In this document: positions 36,842-44,300 of the stretch, in pieces
Layout: every line of letters starts with the position of its first letter
Position numbering within the stretch: position 1 is the stretch's first letter
Assembly (NCBI RefSeq): GCF_000317025.1
Contig: NC_019689.1
Coordinates: 2,519,501 to 2,583,500 of the forward strand
Length of the DNA: 64,000 bases
Origin: Pleurocapsa sp. PCC 7327
Lineage (GTDB): Bacteria; Cyanobacteriota; Cyanobacteriia; Cyanobacteriales; Microcystaceae
Direction of reading: 5' to 3'
Program-made: the position numbers and the translations under genes
The notes under the pieces: generated by a model
Database searches by the model: none
Seen by the model: only the letters and a program-made list of their open reading frames with translations
What the model was told of the DNA's origin: nothing

Positions 36842-38527
36842 ATGATTCCCGATCTGACCACCCCTACTTCACTCAAAAACCAACTTAGTGCAAAAACGAT
36901 TCGACCCATTGCTGCGTCATCGATCCACGGCATTGCTTTTCGAGGAGACGCGATGCTGGCGATCGACGCCAAAAATGGCTATCTCCTAGAAATCAATCCC
37001 TCCACCAACAACACGAAAATCCTCAACCCCCAGCACTGGCAGGACTTTGTCGGGGCAACGGGTTTGGCAGTTGCTGGCGATGTACTCTGGTTTGCAACGG
37101 AAGAAAGCGTTTATTTCTGCTCTCTTGTTGAGGGCGATTTTACGCCGCAACTGTTTGTTAGACTGTCTTACCCAGCTAATGGGGTAGCAGTTTGGGAGTC
37201 TACAGTTTACGTGACTTGCCAAAAGACAGGCGATATTCTCGTCTTCAGTCGCGAGACGGGCAAGCAGATTACCCGTTTTTATGCGCCTGGAATCGGGGTA
37301 GAAAATCTTACGGTTAAAGGCGAGGAACTGTGGGTTTCCGATACCCTCGAACAGACAGTCTATTGCTTGGATCGAGCAACAGGTAAAGTCATTTTTAGCG
37401 TGTTGACTCCGTTTGAGTCGCCAACGGGACTAACGTTTTATATCGACCCAGAAACAGGCAAAGAAACGCTCTACGTTGCTTACTCGCATTGGGAACCCTA
37501 TATTCGAGACAATCCCAACGCCGAACCCGAACGCGAACTCCAGTACCGCGATCGCACCTTCATTCATCCCTTACATTTCCACTATTACCCAGATAAGCGC
37601 TACGCCCTCTCCAACGGCTATCTGGTAGAGATGTCCTACGTCGAAGAACTAGCTCCCTTAGATCCGATCGAACTCAATAACCTAGAATGGCGCATTGCCC
37701 TTCCTGCGGAAACGCCGCGTCAGAAAGTCAGAAAAATTGAAGCGATCGGACTGCCGTTTACCGAAGAAATTCGCGACGGACAGCGAGTAGCGGTGTTTAA
37801 ATTCGACCAACTAACCGATCGCGATCGCCATATTTTTGGCTGGAAGGCATTGCTGGAAGTCTGGAGTATTAAATATCGCATTAAACCTAAAGACTGCGAA
37901 GATCTGCCGGAACTGCCAGAAGAATTTCAAAGCCGCTATCTCGTCGATAATGACGATTTGGCAATGGATACGGATATTATCCGTCGAGCGGCAGTCGAAG
38001 CGATCGGCAGGGAAACCAATCTGTTGCGCAAAATGTACAGCATTCGCAATTACATCTACGATCGTCTTTCCTACGGCATTAAACCCCACATCGATACGCC
38101 AGATATTGTCCTTAGACGGGGCGTAGGCTCCTGCGGCGAGTATTTGGGCGTGCTGCTGGCTCTCTCGCGACTCAATGGCATTGCCTGCCGCACCGTCGGA
38201 CGTTATAAATGCCCTCCCTATCCCCTCCAGCGTGGTGTTCCCCTAGAACCCGATTTCAATCACGTCTGGATGGAGTTTTACCTGCCGGGATTCGGGTGGC
38301 TGCCAATGGAATCCAACCCCGATGACATGGTTGACGGAGGTCCCTATCCAACTCGCTTTTTTATGGGGTTGGCTTGGTATCACGCAGAAATGGCAAAAGG
38401 GATTCCTTTTGAAACCTTAACAAGCGAAGGCGTTCTCGTGCCCAAAGAAAAGGTGTCGATCGGAGAGCTAGCAATCAATCACGTACAGTTTACGATTTTA
38501 GAAGAGTTAGAACCAGAAGAAGGGTGA
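36842..38527 (+). CDS. Beta-propeller / transglutaminase-like protein
   Basis: 561 aa, no signal peptide. Residues about 20-265 carry NHL/YVTN-like propeller blades (GNG-type GLAVAGDVLWFAT, VENLTVKGEELWVSD, PTGLTFYID). Residues about 380-510 are a transglutaminase-like fold with the triad C431 (GVGSCGEYLG), H474 (NHVWMEFY) and D494 (ESNPDD). Such domains act as peptidases or cross-linkers; the cyanobacterial function is not known. The combination of propeller and transglutaminase in one cytoplasmic protein is uncommon. Divergent from the ATPase gene; followed by repeat C. Confidence 0.8.
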   Translation: MIPDLTTPTSLKNQLSAKTIRPIAASSIHGIAFRGDAMLAIDAKNGYLLEINPSTNNTKILNPQHWQDFVGATGLAVAGDVLWFATEESVYFCSLVEGDFTPQLFVRLSYPANGVAVWESTVYVTCQKTGDILVFSRETGKQITRFYAPGIGVENLTVKGEELWVSDTLEQTVYCLDRATGKVIFSVLTPFESPTGLTFYIDPETGKETLYVAYSHWEPYIRDNPNAEPERELQYRDRTFIHPLHFHYYPDKRYALSNGYLVEMSYVEELAPLDPIELNNLEWRIALPAETPRQKVRKIEAIGLPFTEEIRDGQRVAVFKFDQLTDRDRHIFGWKALLEVWSIKYRIKPKDCEDLPELPEEFQSRYLVDNDDLAMDTDIIRRAAVEAIGRETNLLRKMYSIRNYIYDRLSYGIKPHIDTPDIVLRRGVGSCGEYLGVLLALSRLNGIACRTVGRYKCPPYPLQRGVPLEPDFNHVWMEFYLPGFGWLPMESNPDDMVDGGPYPTRFFMGLAWYHAEMAKGIPFETLTSEGVLVPKEKVSIGELAINHVQFTILEELEPEEG

Positions 38528-38608
38528 GGGGGGAGTGTGGGGAGACTTGGGGGACAGAGAGACTCTGAAGAAGAAGACAAGCTACCGATCGCTAACCACT
38601 AACTACTC

Positions 38609-38740
38609 ATATCAAATCCGTTTAATCAGTCATAATATTGTCGTGCGACTATCTAGGTCGCGAGCGGGACGTATGTCCTAACGGATATGCTACGCTTGCC
38701 GCACTACTTGTTATTGTGGTCGTTCAACCGGATTTGATAT
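38609..38740. repeat. MITE-like repeat C
   Basis: 132 bp bounded by the inverted repeats ATATCAAATCCG and CGGATTTGATAT; the next inner bases, TTTAA against TTCAA, also nearly pair. Non-coding. It follows a G-rich simple repeat at 38523-38605 downstream of the transglutaminase gene and precedes psb27. Confidence 0.75.
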
Positions 38741-38821
38741 CATTAAACCCCTATTGCCAGTCGCCAATAATGGTAGGATAAGTGGAACTTGATATCGTTA
38801 GTCTGATTAAACTTAATAATC

Positions 38822-39226
38822 ATGCATTTAAAATCCTACCTATCGCGTTTTCTGGCTTTAGTATTAGTAGTTGTCGTCGGTTTATACGGTTGTTCGTCCA
38901 GTCCAGGGGGATTAACCGGCAATTACAGCCAAGATACTCTAAATGTAATCGAAACGTTGACGACAGCGATTGACTTATCCCCCGATGCTCCTAATAAAGC
39001 AGAAATCCAATCGCTAGCACGCAAACAAATTAACGATTATATCGCTCGCTATCGGCGCAAAGACAAATCGGACGGACTTCGTTCTTTCACTACCATGCAG
39101 ACGGCATTAAATTCCTTGGCAGGGTATTACACTGCCTATGGAAACCGTCCTTTACCTGAAAAGCTCAAGAGTCGTCTCAAACAAGAGTTTAACCAAGCGA
39201 AATTAGCAGTGGAGCGAGGGATTTAA
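38822..39226 (+). CDS. psb27: Photosystem II assembly lipoprotein Psb27
   Basis: 134 aa. Signal peptide with lipobox VGLYGC, so Cys24 is lipidated and the protein sits on the lumenal face of the thylakoid. The mature four-helix bundle (NYSQDTLNVIETLTTAIDLSPDAPNKAEIQSLARKQI... core, then YIARYRRK) binds CP43 of PSII assembly intermediates before the Mn cluster is built. Length is normal. Confidence 0.95.
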   Translation: MHLKSYLSRFLALVLVVVVGLYGCSSSPGGLTGNYSQDTLNVIETLTTAIDLSPDAPNKAEIQSLARKQINDYIARYRRKDKSDGLRSFTTMQTALNSLAGYYTAYGNRPLPEKLKSRLKQEFNQAKLAVERGI

Positions 39227-39255
39227 AGTCAGAAAAACGATAGAGACGCAACCGA

Positions 39256-39873
39256 TTAGCGATCGCCTTGACGAACAGCTACGAGATAGCGAAAGATGTA
39301 TTCGGCTACCTCAACGTAATTTTGCGCCGTTTGGGGAGAATCTGCCCAAACGGTAACCCCATGATGGCGAATGAGCAAGGCGGGAATTCGGGGTGGGGAG
39401 ACCGAGAAGCGATCGCGAATGGCACGAGCAATGCGAGGAACTTCGAGATAATTCTCAAAGACTGGCATGGCAACTTCGGGGTTTTCTTCCCACACCCCCA
39501 ACCCCTTAACCATTTCCAGGGGAGGTAAAGACAAGCTATCTCCCGCTGCCCAGCTAGAGACTAAATTCGCCTCGACGGAGTGAACGTGGTAGCAAGCTTT
39601 AGCTTCTGGAAACAGAGAATAAATGGCTTGGTGAATGCTGGTTTCAGCCGAGGGGCGGTTGCTCGGATGGCACAAATCGAGGACTTCGCCGTCTATCGTC
39701 ACGCGAACAAAGTCATCTTCTTGCAATTGTCCTTTACTTTTTCCGCTAGCCGTAATCCAGAAGCTGCCATCGGGCAGCTTAGCAGAAAGATTGCCAGCCG
39801 TTCCTACCATCCAACCGAGTTGATAGAATTGGCGAGCAGAAGCAATCAAAGCAAAACGGGGATCGGGGTCCAT
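39256..39873 (-). CDS. mtnB: Methylthioribulose-1-phosphate dehydratase
   Basis: 205 aa, class II aldolase/adducin fold. Methionine-salvage enzyme that dehydrates methylthioribulose-1-P. Zinc-binding and family motifs: GNLSAKLPDGSFWITASGKSKG, PSNRPSAETSIHQAIY, CYHVHSVEAN (His ligands) and LIRHHGVTVWADS. It is the downstream partner of mtnX on the same strand, but about 640 bp with a beta-lactamase relic separates them, so the two may no longer be one transcript. Confidence 0.92.
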   Translation of the reverse strand: MDPDPRFALIASARQFYQLGWMVGTAGNLSAKLPDGSFWITASGKSKGQLQEDDFVRVTIDGEVLDLCHPSNRPSAETSIHQAIYSLFPEAKACYHVHSVEANLVSSWAAGDSLSLPPLEMVKGLGVWEENPEVAMPVFENYLEVPRIARAIRDRFSVSPPRIPALLIRHHGVTVWADSPQTAQNYVEVAEYIFRYLVAVRQGDR

Positions 39874-39922
39874 CAGTAATCAGCAATCAGTAATCGGTTA
39901 TCAGTGGTAGAGGCGGGTTTAA

Positions 39923-40528
39923 TTGTCAAAATCATCAATCTTGTTCGCACGAATCAATCGAAACCCGCCCATACAGCGATCGGATATTCTGGGAATGCCG
40001 CGTTGCAAATTCCGAAATCGAAGCATCCAACAGTGTAGTTTAAAGCTGTTCGCGATTTCATTCACTCATGAAATCATCAACCGAAGCTCGTATTTAGCGA
40101 TCGCGATCGTACTCGCTTTAGGTTGCTTTATCTTCATTCTATTTCAGCCGATCCGGTCGGCTTTGACAATGCCCAACCCAGCGATTCAGCCTTCCGAACG
40201 CGCAGAGGTTGCTCAACAACCCAATTTTGGACGGCATTTTCAAGAACTGGAGGTTGAAGGATCGATTCCTATCTACGATTTGAGCCGCGATCGTATCTTT
40301 CAACACAATCGATCCCGGAACACAAATGACCACACGATCGGGGGCAAGACGGGTTGGATTGGATTTGACGATAGCGTGAAACCCCAAATCGGATGGTTGG
40401 TTGGGTACTTAGAGAAAGAAAAAAATGTTTACTTTTTTGCCACAAATATAGAGATTCGTAAAGAAAAAGATGCTTCTGCCCGAATAACATTGACGCGCCG
40501 TTGCTTCAACGATCTAGGACTGTTGTAG
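39923..40528 (+). pseudogene. Class D beta-lactamase-like relic with internal deletion
   Basis: 201-codon open frame from TTG; the N-terminal residues may be adventitious. After a TM-like segment (56-76), the sequence reads EVEGSIPIYDLSRDRIFQHNRSR, the beginning of a class D (OXA-type) beta-lactamase. It then passes abruptly, at codons about 129-140 (nt about 40307-40345), to GGKTGWIGFD, the KTG box of strand b5, followed by PQIGWLVGYLEKEKNVYFFATNI and the C-terminal helix. The segment carrying the STFK catalytic serine and SxV motif (about 120-130 residues) is missing, so it cannot be catalytic. Oriented opposite to mtnX/mtnB; its 3' end overlaps the mtnX 3' end by 15 bp. Confidence 0.8.
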
Positions 40529-41173
40529 GCGCTTTTGCAGAAAATCGCGGATTTCAAAAAAGTCGTTCCAGGGAATATAAGGTTTATTTTCCGATTCCAT
40601 ATAATCGATGAGGCGATCGCGAGCAAAAACCAAATCGGCTTTCAGTGCCATATTGATATCCGTAACGGAATCGCCAATCGCGATCGTTTCTTGAGCGGGA
40701 TATCGGGCCATCACTTGTACTTTAGCAACTAATTCCGTCTCTCCCTCATAGTCCGAGTAAACTTGCAGATAGTCTTTGCTGGTGTCGATATCTACGGCAG
40801 AGATGGCAGCTACTCTTTCTAAGAGTCCATAGCGAGATAAGACTTTCGTTACCATTCCCCGCAGTCCGCCAGAAATAACGACAAAAGGCGTGTTTTGGCG
40901 ATCGAGAAAGTCTAGTAAAGCCTCTAATCCGGGGCGAATGGGTTTGTCCGAGGCATAGTCAAGGATTTCGGGATAGCGAGAGGAGGGAATCGATTCTAGC
41001 AGTTGGCGAATGCCTTCTCGTAGCGTTAGGGTGCGATTATACATTTGGGGCATCAGTTTTGCCGATAAATCTGGGGCAAACGCTTTGAGCATTCCCGCAA
41101 AGGTTTCGATCGCAGTAATAGTGCCATCAAAGTCGCAGAAAACAACTTTTTGGTAGATGGGGGATTGGGACAT
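40514..41173 (-). CDS. mtnX: 2-hydroxy-3-keto-5-methylthiopentenyl-1-phosphate phosphatase
   Basis: 219 aa, HAD-superfamily phosphatase. The HAD nucleophile pair is CDFDGT with D14 and D16; VISGGLRG and AIGDSVTDINMALKAD carry motifs II-IV. It matches MtnX, which removes phosphate in the methionine salvage pathway, and sits beside mtnB in many cyanobacteria. Here the two are separated by a beta-lactamase relic. The rest of the pathway (mtnA, mtnC/D) is not in the window. Confidence 0.85.
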   Translation of the reverse strand: MSQSPIYQKVVFCDFDGTITAIETFAGMLKAFAPDLSAKLMPQMYNRTLTLREGIRQLLESIPSSRYPEILDYASDKPIRPGLEALLDFLDRQNTPFVVISGGLRGMVTKVLSRYGLLERVAAISAVDIDTSKDYLQVYSDYEGETELVAKVQVMARYPAQETIAIGDSVTDINMALKADLVFARDRLIDYMESENKPYIPWNDFFEIRDFLQKRLQQS

Positions 41174-41348
41174 GATACCATTTGGGATTTGGGATTTTGG
41201 ATTGAGAAAGACCGAATCTTATAAAGGTTTTAAAAACCCATTTGTAGCCAAGATTTTTCAGATTGGGATGAGAAAGTGCCGACCTATTTTATCAGGACTT
41301 ACGGGAAAATAGATTTTCATGCCTTCTAGAGATGGCAGTTAGTGACGA

Positions 41349-44300
41349 CTACTTAGAAAAAGCCGATTGAGAACAAACTTTTAGCTTTTCTCGTTCTTGC
41401 GAATGACTGACTAAATAATCGTCCAACCACTTACATCCTTGTTCGAGAAGACCTTCCAATCTCGCTAATTCTTCTTCTACTTGCCAAAGTCTAACCGTGC
41501 CATTCCTGGAAACCGTTACCACCTGTTGGCTATCTTTTTTAGAAAAAGGCGATCGCTCGGCTTGAAAATTGATTCCGTAGAGCAAATCTCGATCTCCCTT
41601 AAACTCTGCCCTGAGATTTCCTTGTAAGTCCCAAACTCTCGCCGTCCCGTCGCTAGAAGCCGTTGCTACTCTTTTTCCATCGGGACTAAAACTGACGCTG
41701 TAGACGGGGAAGGGATCGCCTTTCAAGTCAGCGATTAGGTTGCCTTGCAAGTTCCATAACTTAGTCGTCCCATCTCTAGAGGCGGTAGCAATGGTGCGTC
41801 CGTCGGGATTAAAGGTGGCTCGGTAAATTAAATCCTGATGTCCCTTAAACTCGGTTAATAGATTGCCCTGCAAATCCCACAGCTTAGCCGTTCCATCTCT
41901 GGATGTCGTGACGATTTGCTGTCCGACTTCCGGGGAAAGCGTCAAGCGAACGGGACTGAAACTGACGCTGTAAACCGCTTCCCGATGCGCCTTGAAACTC
42001 GTGACTTTCTTGGGTCGATCTCCTCCTACATCCCATAACCAGACATCGCCATCTCTAAATGCGATCGCCAGCAACTGCCCGTTAGGACTAAAATTGACAC
42101 CGTATACGGGAACGGAATTGACTTTTAATTCTACTAACGCTTCGCCTTGCAAATTCCAAATTTTGACGATCCCGCTGCTTGAGGCAGTAGCAATTTGCCG
42201 ACCGTCGGGGCTGAAGTTAATGCTGTAAATTCGATCGCGATGAGCTTTGAACTGATGTTTGAGATTGCCTTGCAAATCTTGCAAATAAACCATACCATCT
42301 TTAGAAGCGATCGCAATTAACCGTTCGTCAGGACTGAAACCAACGCTAGTGACGGTATCTTCTATGATTTTAAACTCTCCTGGGGGTCTCTCTTTGAGGT
42401 GCCATAGCTTAACAAGGGTATCGCTAGAGGCAGTCGCCACTTGTTGTCCGTCGGCACTAAACGCCACATCATAGATAGGTTCTTGATGTCCTGCAAGCGT
42501 TGCCAACACGTTTCCTTGCCAGTCCCACAGCTTAGCGGTTCCATCGCTCGAAGCCGTTGCTATCTTCTCTCCGTTGGGGCTAAAGGCAACGCTATTGACT
42601 AATTCTTGATGTCCTATTAGAGTCAAGATCGGATTGCCCTGTCTGTCCCATATTTTTGCCGTACCGTCTCTAGCGGCGGCAGCGATATGCTTTCCATCTG
42701 GACTCCAAGCGACGCTGTAGAAAGCATTGGTAACATCCTGAAAAATTGCCAACTGTTTGCCCTCTAAGTTCCACAGCCTCACCGTTCCATCTCTGGAAGC
42801 AGTTGCTATCTGTTTCCCGTCGGGACTAAAACTAATATCATCGACCGACCTTTGGTGTCCTACTAAAATCGCCAGCTGCCTGCCCTGCCAATCCCAGATC
42901 CTAGCCGTTTCGTCTCTCGAAGCCGTGGCGATTCTCGTGCCGTCGGGACTCCAAGCAACGCTATAGACCGAACTTTCGTGTCCTTTAAACGTGGCTAGTT
43001 CCTGCCCGCGTAAGTTCCAAAGTTTGACCGTACCGTCTTTAGAAGCCGTTGCCAGCGTTTGTCCGTCGGGACTCCAAGCAACGCTATAGACATCGCTTTG
43101 GTGTCCTTGAAAGATAACGCGCCCGTTACCTTGTCGATCCCACAACCGAGCCGTTGCATCTCTAGAAGCAGTAGCAATCCATTTCCCGTCGGGACTGAAG
43201 CTGATGCTGTTGACTGTCTCTTGATGTCCTTCTAGCTGATTTTTTTCCTGAATGGTGTCGAGAATTTGTTGCAGAGCGAGTATGGGGCTGGTAGCAGGAT
43301 AGTCTTGCAAGGGACGATTGTCTTTTTGAATCAGGTTTTCTAATTCTTGTCCCGCTTTCATAGCGGTGAGCAAGGCTTCGAGTTGCTCGAACTCGAACTG
43401 CCGCCACGCCGTATCCCCCATTTTTTGAAGCTGGGTGCCGAGGCGAGCTTGTTGCTGCTTGTTGAAGGCATAAATTGCCGTCGAGAGCGCGATCGCCGAT
43501 CCTAGAACAGAAACGATTAAAATAGCAGAACCGATGCGAATCATGCGCGTGGCTCTTTCGTTGGCATCGGTCAAAATTTTGTTGGCTTTGCGTTCGGCTT
43601 CTAATTTGCGTTCGGCTTCTCGTTTGTCTAATTTTTGACTGGCGGTCAAAAATTGATAGTCTACATTGCTAAGATTTTTTCCCACAGCCCAGGCTAGCGC
43701 GTCTTTTAAAGCTTGCCCTCGCAACAGGCGAGATTCATCTTGATATTGAGAAACTTGCCAAGCGACGAGTGCCTCGGCGTAAGGACGCAGCTTTTCTAAT
43801 TGTTTGTCTACCCAAGGGCGATTGAAAACGGCTTGATAAATTGGGTTGTAGGCTTGTAATTTCCCATCGCGCTTGACGACTAACCCCGATAGCCGCAATT
43901 CGCTTTGTTCGGGACTGCCGTCTGCTTCGATGAATCCTTGTTGCAAGATTTGCTGATAGAATCCCAGAAGCGCGCCGGCGCGTTGTTCGTTGACCAAAAG
44001 GCGATCGCGAATCGTTTTCAGATGGATGGGTTCGTCTTGGGATTCCCAGTTTTCAATAATGCGATCGCGCGCTATTTTTTCGACAATTTCTGCTTCATCG
44101 CCTAAGGGAATGAAAGTGTCAGCCGTAGCGACGATCTGACAAAGCTTTTGAGTTAGAAAAGGTTGTCCTCCCGTCCAATACAATATTTCTTTGAGAACGG
44201 CGCCAGGATTTTCGGCAATGTTTTTTAATCCTCGCTCTAGGGGTCGAACTTCTTCGATTGTAAAACCCGTCAGTTCAATCGCAACTCCGATATTAAAGGA

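Follow-up and report, generated by a model that had tools for sequence, protein, structure and literature searches.

Class D (OXA-like) beta-lactamases carry seven fingerprint motifs, as given in an excerpt of PMC12389319, and most cyanobacterial OXA-like genes are placed near YbxI, with little expected activity, in an excerpt of PMC13095955. The described proteins to which our locus can be compared are the cyanobacterial enzymes represented by PDB 6nhs and by the genes of Chlorogloeopsis fritschii PCC 6912, Atlanticothrix silvestris, Aphanothece sp. and Gloeocapsopsis crepidinum (L101-L104), which have 56-61% overall identity to it. The N- and C-terminal parts of these proteins align with our sequence, and KTG and GWxxG(W/Y) are common to both, whereas our sequence lacks STFK, SAV, YGN and FWL together with 138 residues and has its start out of frame. 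Like ordinary bacterial pseudogenes it has a shifted start, an internal deletion, a sister copy broken in another way and near-neutral differences; the one contrast is that its frame happens to stay open. We found no literature on this remnant.

Class D matches (E <= 0.001) are present in 14 of 57 other relatives and in 106 of 291 genomes of the order, the genome under study included. The named class D relatives of the remnant, taken as the best 80 of at least 519, are nearly all cyanobacterial. In 75 of these 80 loci, counted by a looser criterion than the filter used for conserved columns below, STFK and the C-terminal part lie in one frame. The gene is split over frames in five of the 80 (L107, L116, L146, L172 and L178), so broken copies recur.

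The window analysed here is a stretch of 64,000 nucleotides (C1:2519501-2583500) from Pleurocapsa sp. PCC 7327 (G000), whose genome is a single contig of 4,986,817 bases with a reported completeness of 100%. The features of the locus are as follows, G002 being a sister species and L003 an intact relative of 301 amino acids.

39256..39873, minus strand: mtnB, methylthioribulose 1-phosphate dehydratase (score above the cut-off of TIGR03328)
39923..40528, plus strand: open frame with the class D remnant, 201 codons and a stop, TTG start (matches to class D beta-lactamases)
39923..40072, plus strand: first 50 codons of the frame, derived from leader DNA and open by chance (comparison with G002)
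40068..40070, plus strand: ATG matching the G002 start codon, out of frame with the remnant
40073..40294, plus strand: retained N-terminal part comparable with G002, 74 codons, with the membrane segment and first strands
40322..40327, plus strand: approximate junction of the 414-bp internal deletion (alignment with L003 and G002)
40346..40354, plus strand: KTG box (class D motif 6)
40391..40408, plus strand: GWLVGY (class D motif 7, Y replacing the last W)
40514..41173, minus strand: mtnX-like HAD phosphatase (profile search)

The mtnX-like gene passes only the broader HAD-SF-IB model, its top models PRK09552 and salvage_mtnX both staying below their cut-offs. Both mtn genes are on the minus strand, 640 bases apart, and the remnant frame between them is on the plus strand, convergent to mtnX, with a 15-base overlap of the two tails. 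The photosystem II gene psb27/pbs27 lies at 38822-39226 of the same window. Upstream of it is an inverted repeat (38604-38745; 34-nt arms, 74% complementary, 74 nt between them) which resembles a small mobile repeat and has about 10 further partial matches in the genome.

The initial annotation held that mtnX and mtnB are normally close. This is fair but not general: of the 21 relatives that have a clear mtnX (excluding G002), 8 have the two genes adjacent (7 of 20 tested loci, plus G043 by coordinates). No class D gene was found within the flanks examined at the 20 mtnX loci tested. The interval is interrupted by other genes elsewhere too: in G053 mtnX and mtnB are separated by a 541-codon frame (L097, 3320-4942). 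Fischerella sp. PCC 9431 (L105) has a single-frame class D gene about 5 kb from its mtnX-mtnB pair, perhaps by chance. An apparent mtnB beside the class D gene of Calothrix sp. PCC 7716 (L153) was rejected at 25.6% identity over residues 2-85 only. The same-genus genomes G001 and G003 were likewise discarded as sources of a same-place orthologue, their single-frame class D genes being on contigs other than that of mtnB in these draft assemblies.

The open frame matches the Pfam Transpeptidase model (1.4e-5), the NCBIfam class D models (down to 1.3e-16, all below the full-length cut-offs) and PDB 6nhs (7.8e-26, in two stretches, query 94-136 and 108-201). Judged by these profile and pairwise comparisons, the class D match is beyond chance. 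The frame contains two separate class D stretches, an N-terminal one and a second running from the KTG box to the C-terminus. The initial annotation was right that mtnX and mtnB are separated by a gutted class D gene on the other strand. The retained pieces comprise the N-terminal membrane segment, the first strands, the KTG box and the C-terminal helix.

Five of the seven fingerprint motifs are lost, KTG and GWxxG(W/Y) being those that remain; the Y in place of the last W is also present in the intact cyanobacterial relatives aligned. PASTFK (SxxK), with the catalytic serine and the carboxylated lysine, is missing from the frame and its position falls in the deleted part, which bears out the earlier statement that the catalytic serine is gone. 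The position of FxxW (motif 2) falls there too, and SAV, YGN and FWL are missing from the frame. Among the marks of a functional class D beta-lactamase the frame thus has KTG and GWxxGW, and lacks SxxK, SAV and YGN/FWL. The alignment with L003 that places the junction gives a net loss of 138 residues (414 bp); the initial annotation had put the loss too low, at about 120-130 residues.

The C-terminal part of the window's copy has no frameshift, and the frame is open throughout from 39923 to 40528. The single open frame described initially lacks a proper start. Beside the ancestral start codon the window and G002 differ in length by one nucleotide, which puts the ATG at 40068 in another frame than the remnant. 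In G002 the stretch matching the upstream 50 codons contains two TGA stops. Five in-frame starts are left: three precede the membrane segment (TTG 39923, TTG 39941, ATG 39995) and two follow it (TTG 40163, ATG 40169). With the ancestral start judged by this sister sequence, the open frame is not an intact gene.

G002 belongs to the same genus and is the closest relative compared (94% and 95% DNA identity in two aligned blocks); the comparison at this place rests on it as the one close relative with the gene. It carries the same class D gene at the same place, split over two contigs, and neither it nor G000 has a class D gene over the family cut-off. The N-terminal part of the G002 gene is next to mtnB, at the extreme end of contig C6, where homology ends after DLNSDR and is followed by 55 bases. 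Its C-terminal part lies beside mtnX on contig C23. This part opens with MILEQTPDDTIRDKTGW, which adjoins the end of a repeat element, and shows two one-base gaps (frameshifts) relative to the window. G002 keeps MILEQTP, to the right of the window's junction, which aligns with KDIMIMEKTPDY of L003; the window keeps IFQHNRSRNT, to the left of the break in G002. Since each copy keeps codons missing from the other, the damage is separate and was done to a copy longer than either. A single deletion common to both genomes was rejected on the same ground. The deletion had been proposed to be recent, and it is so in the sense that it postdates the split from G002.

The repeat element is about 930 bp long, encodes pieces of a DDE transposase (PF13613, PF13359) and has at least 23 copies in G000 among the scored matches, for example one at about bases 219-1144 of L192 (G000 C1:2671900-2673200). 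Five G000 copies that we compared are 99% identical and have common ends and differing flanks. Two G000 copies matched a few bases further, and we considered whether the first bases of the G002 C-terminal part are element sequence. This was rejected, because the five copies with differing flanks fix the end of the element before these bases, which align with intact genes.

The element copy beside the G002 C-terminal part lacks its middle. On its far side is a ferritin-domain gene (PF00210), which we take to be dps, in a stretch matching G000 2152408-2153080. Contig C41 of G002 has a stretch matching G000 2153276-2155166 with an Fe-S protein gene, presumably glcF, followed by another element copy, and contigs C41 and C6 end in the same 55 bases. 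From these matches, G002 appears to have been rearranged between the class D gene and the interval at about 2152408-2155166 of G000, with element copies at the break points.

Next, we examined the codons that remain. Over 138 codon pairs the remnant has 22 nonsynonymous and 8 synonymous differences between G000 and G002 (dN 0.072, dS 0.090, dN/dS 0.80), a pairwise ratio that spans both lineages, so the laxity may in part be that of G002 alone. The count includes the last five codons of the C-terminal part, which overlap mtnX, and leaves out codons at which G002 has a gap. The neighbours mtnB, mtnX and pbs27 together have 17 nonsynonymous and 36 synonymous differences over 558 codons (dN 0.013, dS 0.098, ratio 0.14). 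The remnant differs from the three neighbour genes (Fisher p = 5e-4) at similar dS. It is compatible with neutrality (p = 0.66), whereas the neighbours are not (p = 8e-12). These ratios speak against constraint on the remaining frame.

We also counted changes in columns with at least 90% conservation across 63 intact relatives, this set being what strict text filters left of the 80 named loci after removing 17. The window is changed at 4 of 34 such columns (0 of 9 in the N-terminal part, 4 of 25 in the C-terminal part), and one of the four sits at the deletion junction. When each relative was left out in turn, 61 of the 63 had 0-3 such changes and two had 8 and 9. Erosion on the window side is thus mild, which, like the open frame and its C-terminal part free of frameshifts, counts against the pseudogene reading, and the conserved-column count is only suggestive of relaxed constraint. 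Disruption relative to intact homologues (the internal deletion and the out-of-frame start) and relaxed constraint on the remaining codons are both what is found in pseudogenes.

Does the frame nonetheless encode something? The initial annotation had read the kept frame as a hint of another role, for example a membrane-anchored KTG-domain protein. Such a new protein would be made from an upstream start (TTG 39923, TTG 39941 or ATG 39995) and would bind, not cut, beta-lactams or wall peptides. The 201-codon open frame with its upstream starts would allow it, and the AlphaFold2 model, made with 24 relatives in the alignment (mean pLDDT 69.1, pTM 0.48), has confident strands at 113-119, 124-128, 155-165 and 168-178 and a confident helix at 181-197, although the alignment steers the model to the parent fold and the confident pieces are no proof that the remnant folds. 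The KTG box falls in residues 134-147, where pLDDT is below 50 and no strand is formed; the lack of a KTG strand in this model speaks against a function built on KTG. The lost start and the near-neutral codons also count against a new role, as does random damage in a close relative, an outcome that the initial annotation had itself named as refuting and that is seen here in the split and frameshifted gene of G002. The short form was seen in none of the 80 named loci, and among the matches listed from the 291 genomes of the order only the window's own genome combines the two halves in a single stretch of such length. A scan of 39850-40600 gave no sigma-70-like promoter, where chance alone would give 1.5; with one promoter type scanned this is weak evidence. 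All in all we regard a KTG-domain protein as very improbable. We give equally little credence to the gutted frame serving, in this species alone, as a short anchored protein of first strands and C-terminal helix with a binding or regulatory role.

The stretch could instead matter as DNA or as an antisense transcript that tunes mtnX or mtnB, as its convergent orientation, its tail overlap with mtnX and the separation of the two genes might suggest. We think this extremely improbable: no Rfam family was found in 38400-41400, the promoter scan was equally empty, and in G002 the two genes lie on separate contigs, each of which carries a part of the stretch. An assembly error that hides a whole gene present in the cell has next to no likelihood, given a single-contig genome reported as complete and a shifted start that is a second lesion apart from the deletion.

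The reading in which we have high confidence is therefore that the remnant is a pseudogene. Its parent would be an acquired cyanobacterial class D gene, which lost its function independently in each of the two sister species, and it is by coincidence that the deletion kept the frame. What was observed in support of the pseudogene reading is homology to class D, loss of motifs and of the start, breakpoints that differ between the two species, and near-neutral differences. By this account, in the common ancestor with G002, a class D (OXA-like) gene of a kind common in cyanobacteria would have occupied the space between mtnX and mtnB, on the strand opposite to theirs, and this copy was presumably whole and active. 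Loss of function would have followed, by lesions whose order we infer. In the window's lineage, a one-nucleotide length change would have put the start out of frame, and the 414-bp deletion would have removed the catalytic core while keeping the frame by chance. In G002 the gene would have broken separately, at repeat elements and through small frameshifts. The remnant would then be without protein function and probably without a product. A deletion that keeps the frame has a one-in-three chance and so needs no special explanation.

The remnant itself matters little, as it is a clear case of gene death by ordinary decay and not a new protein. More generally, the locus is a warning that a KTG box in an open frame is not enough to identify a resistance gene. 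The same acquired beta-lactamase-like gene was lost in both sister species, in each by its own route, which suggests that it was dispensable there.
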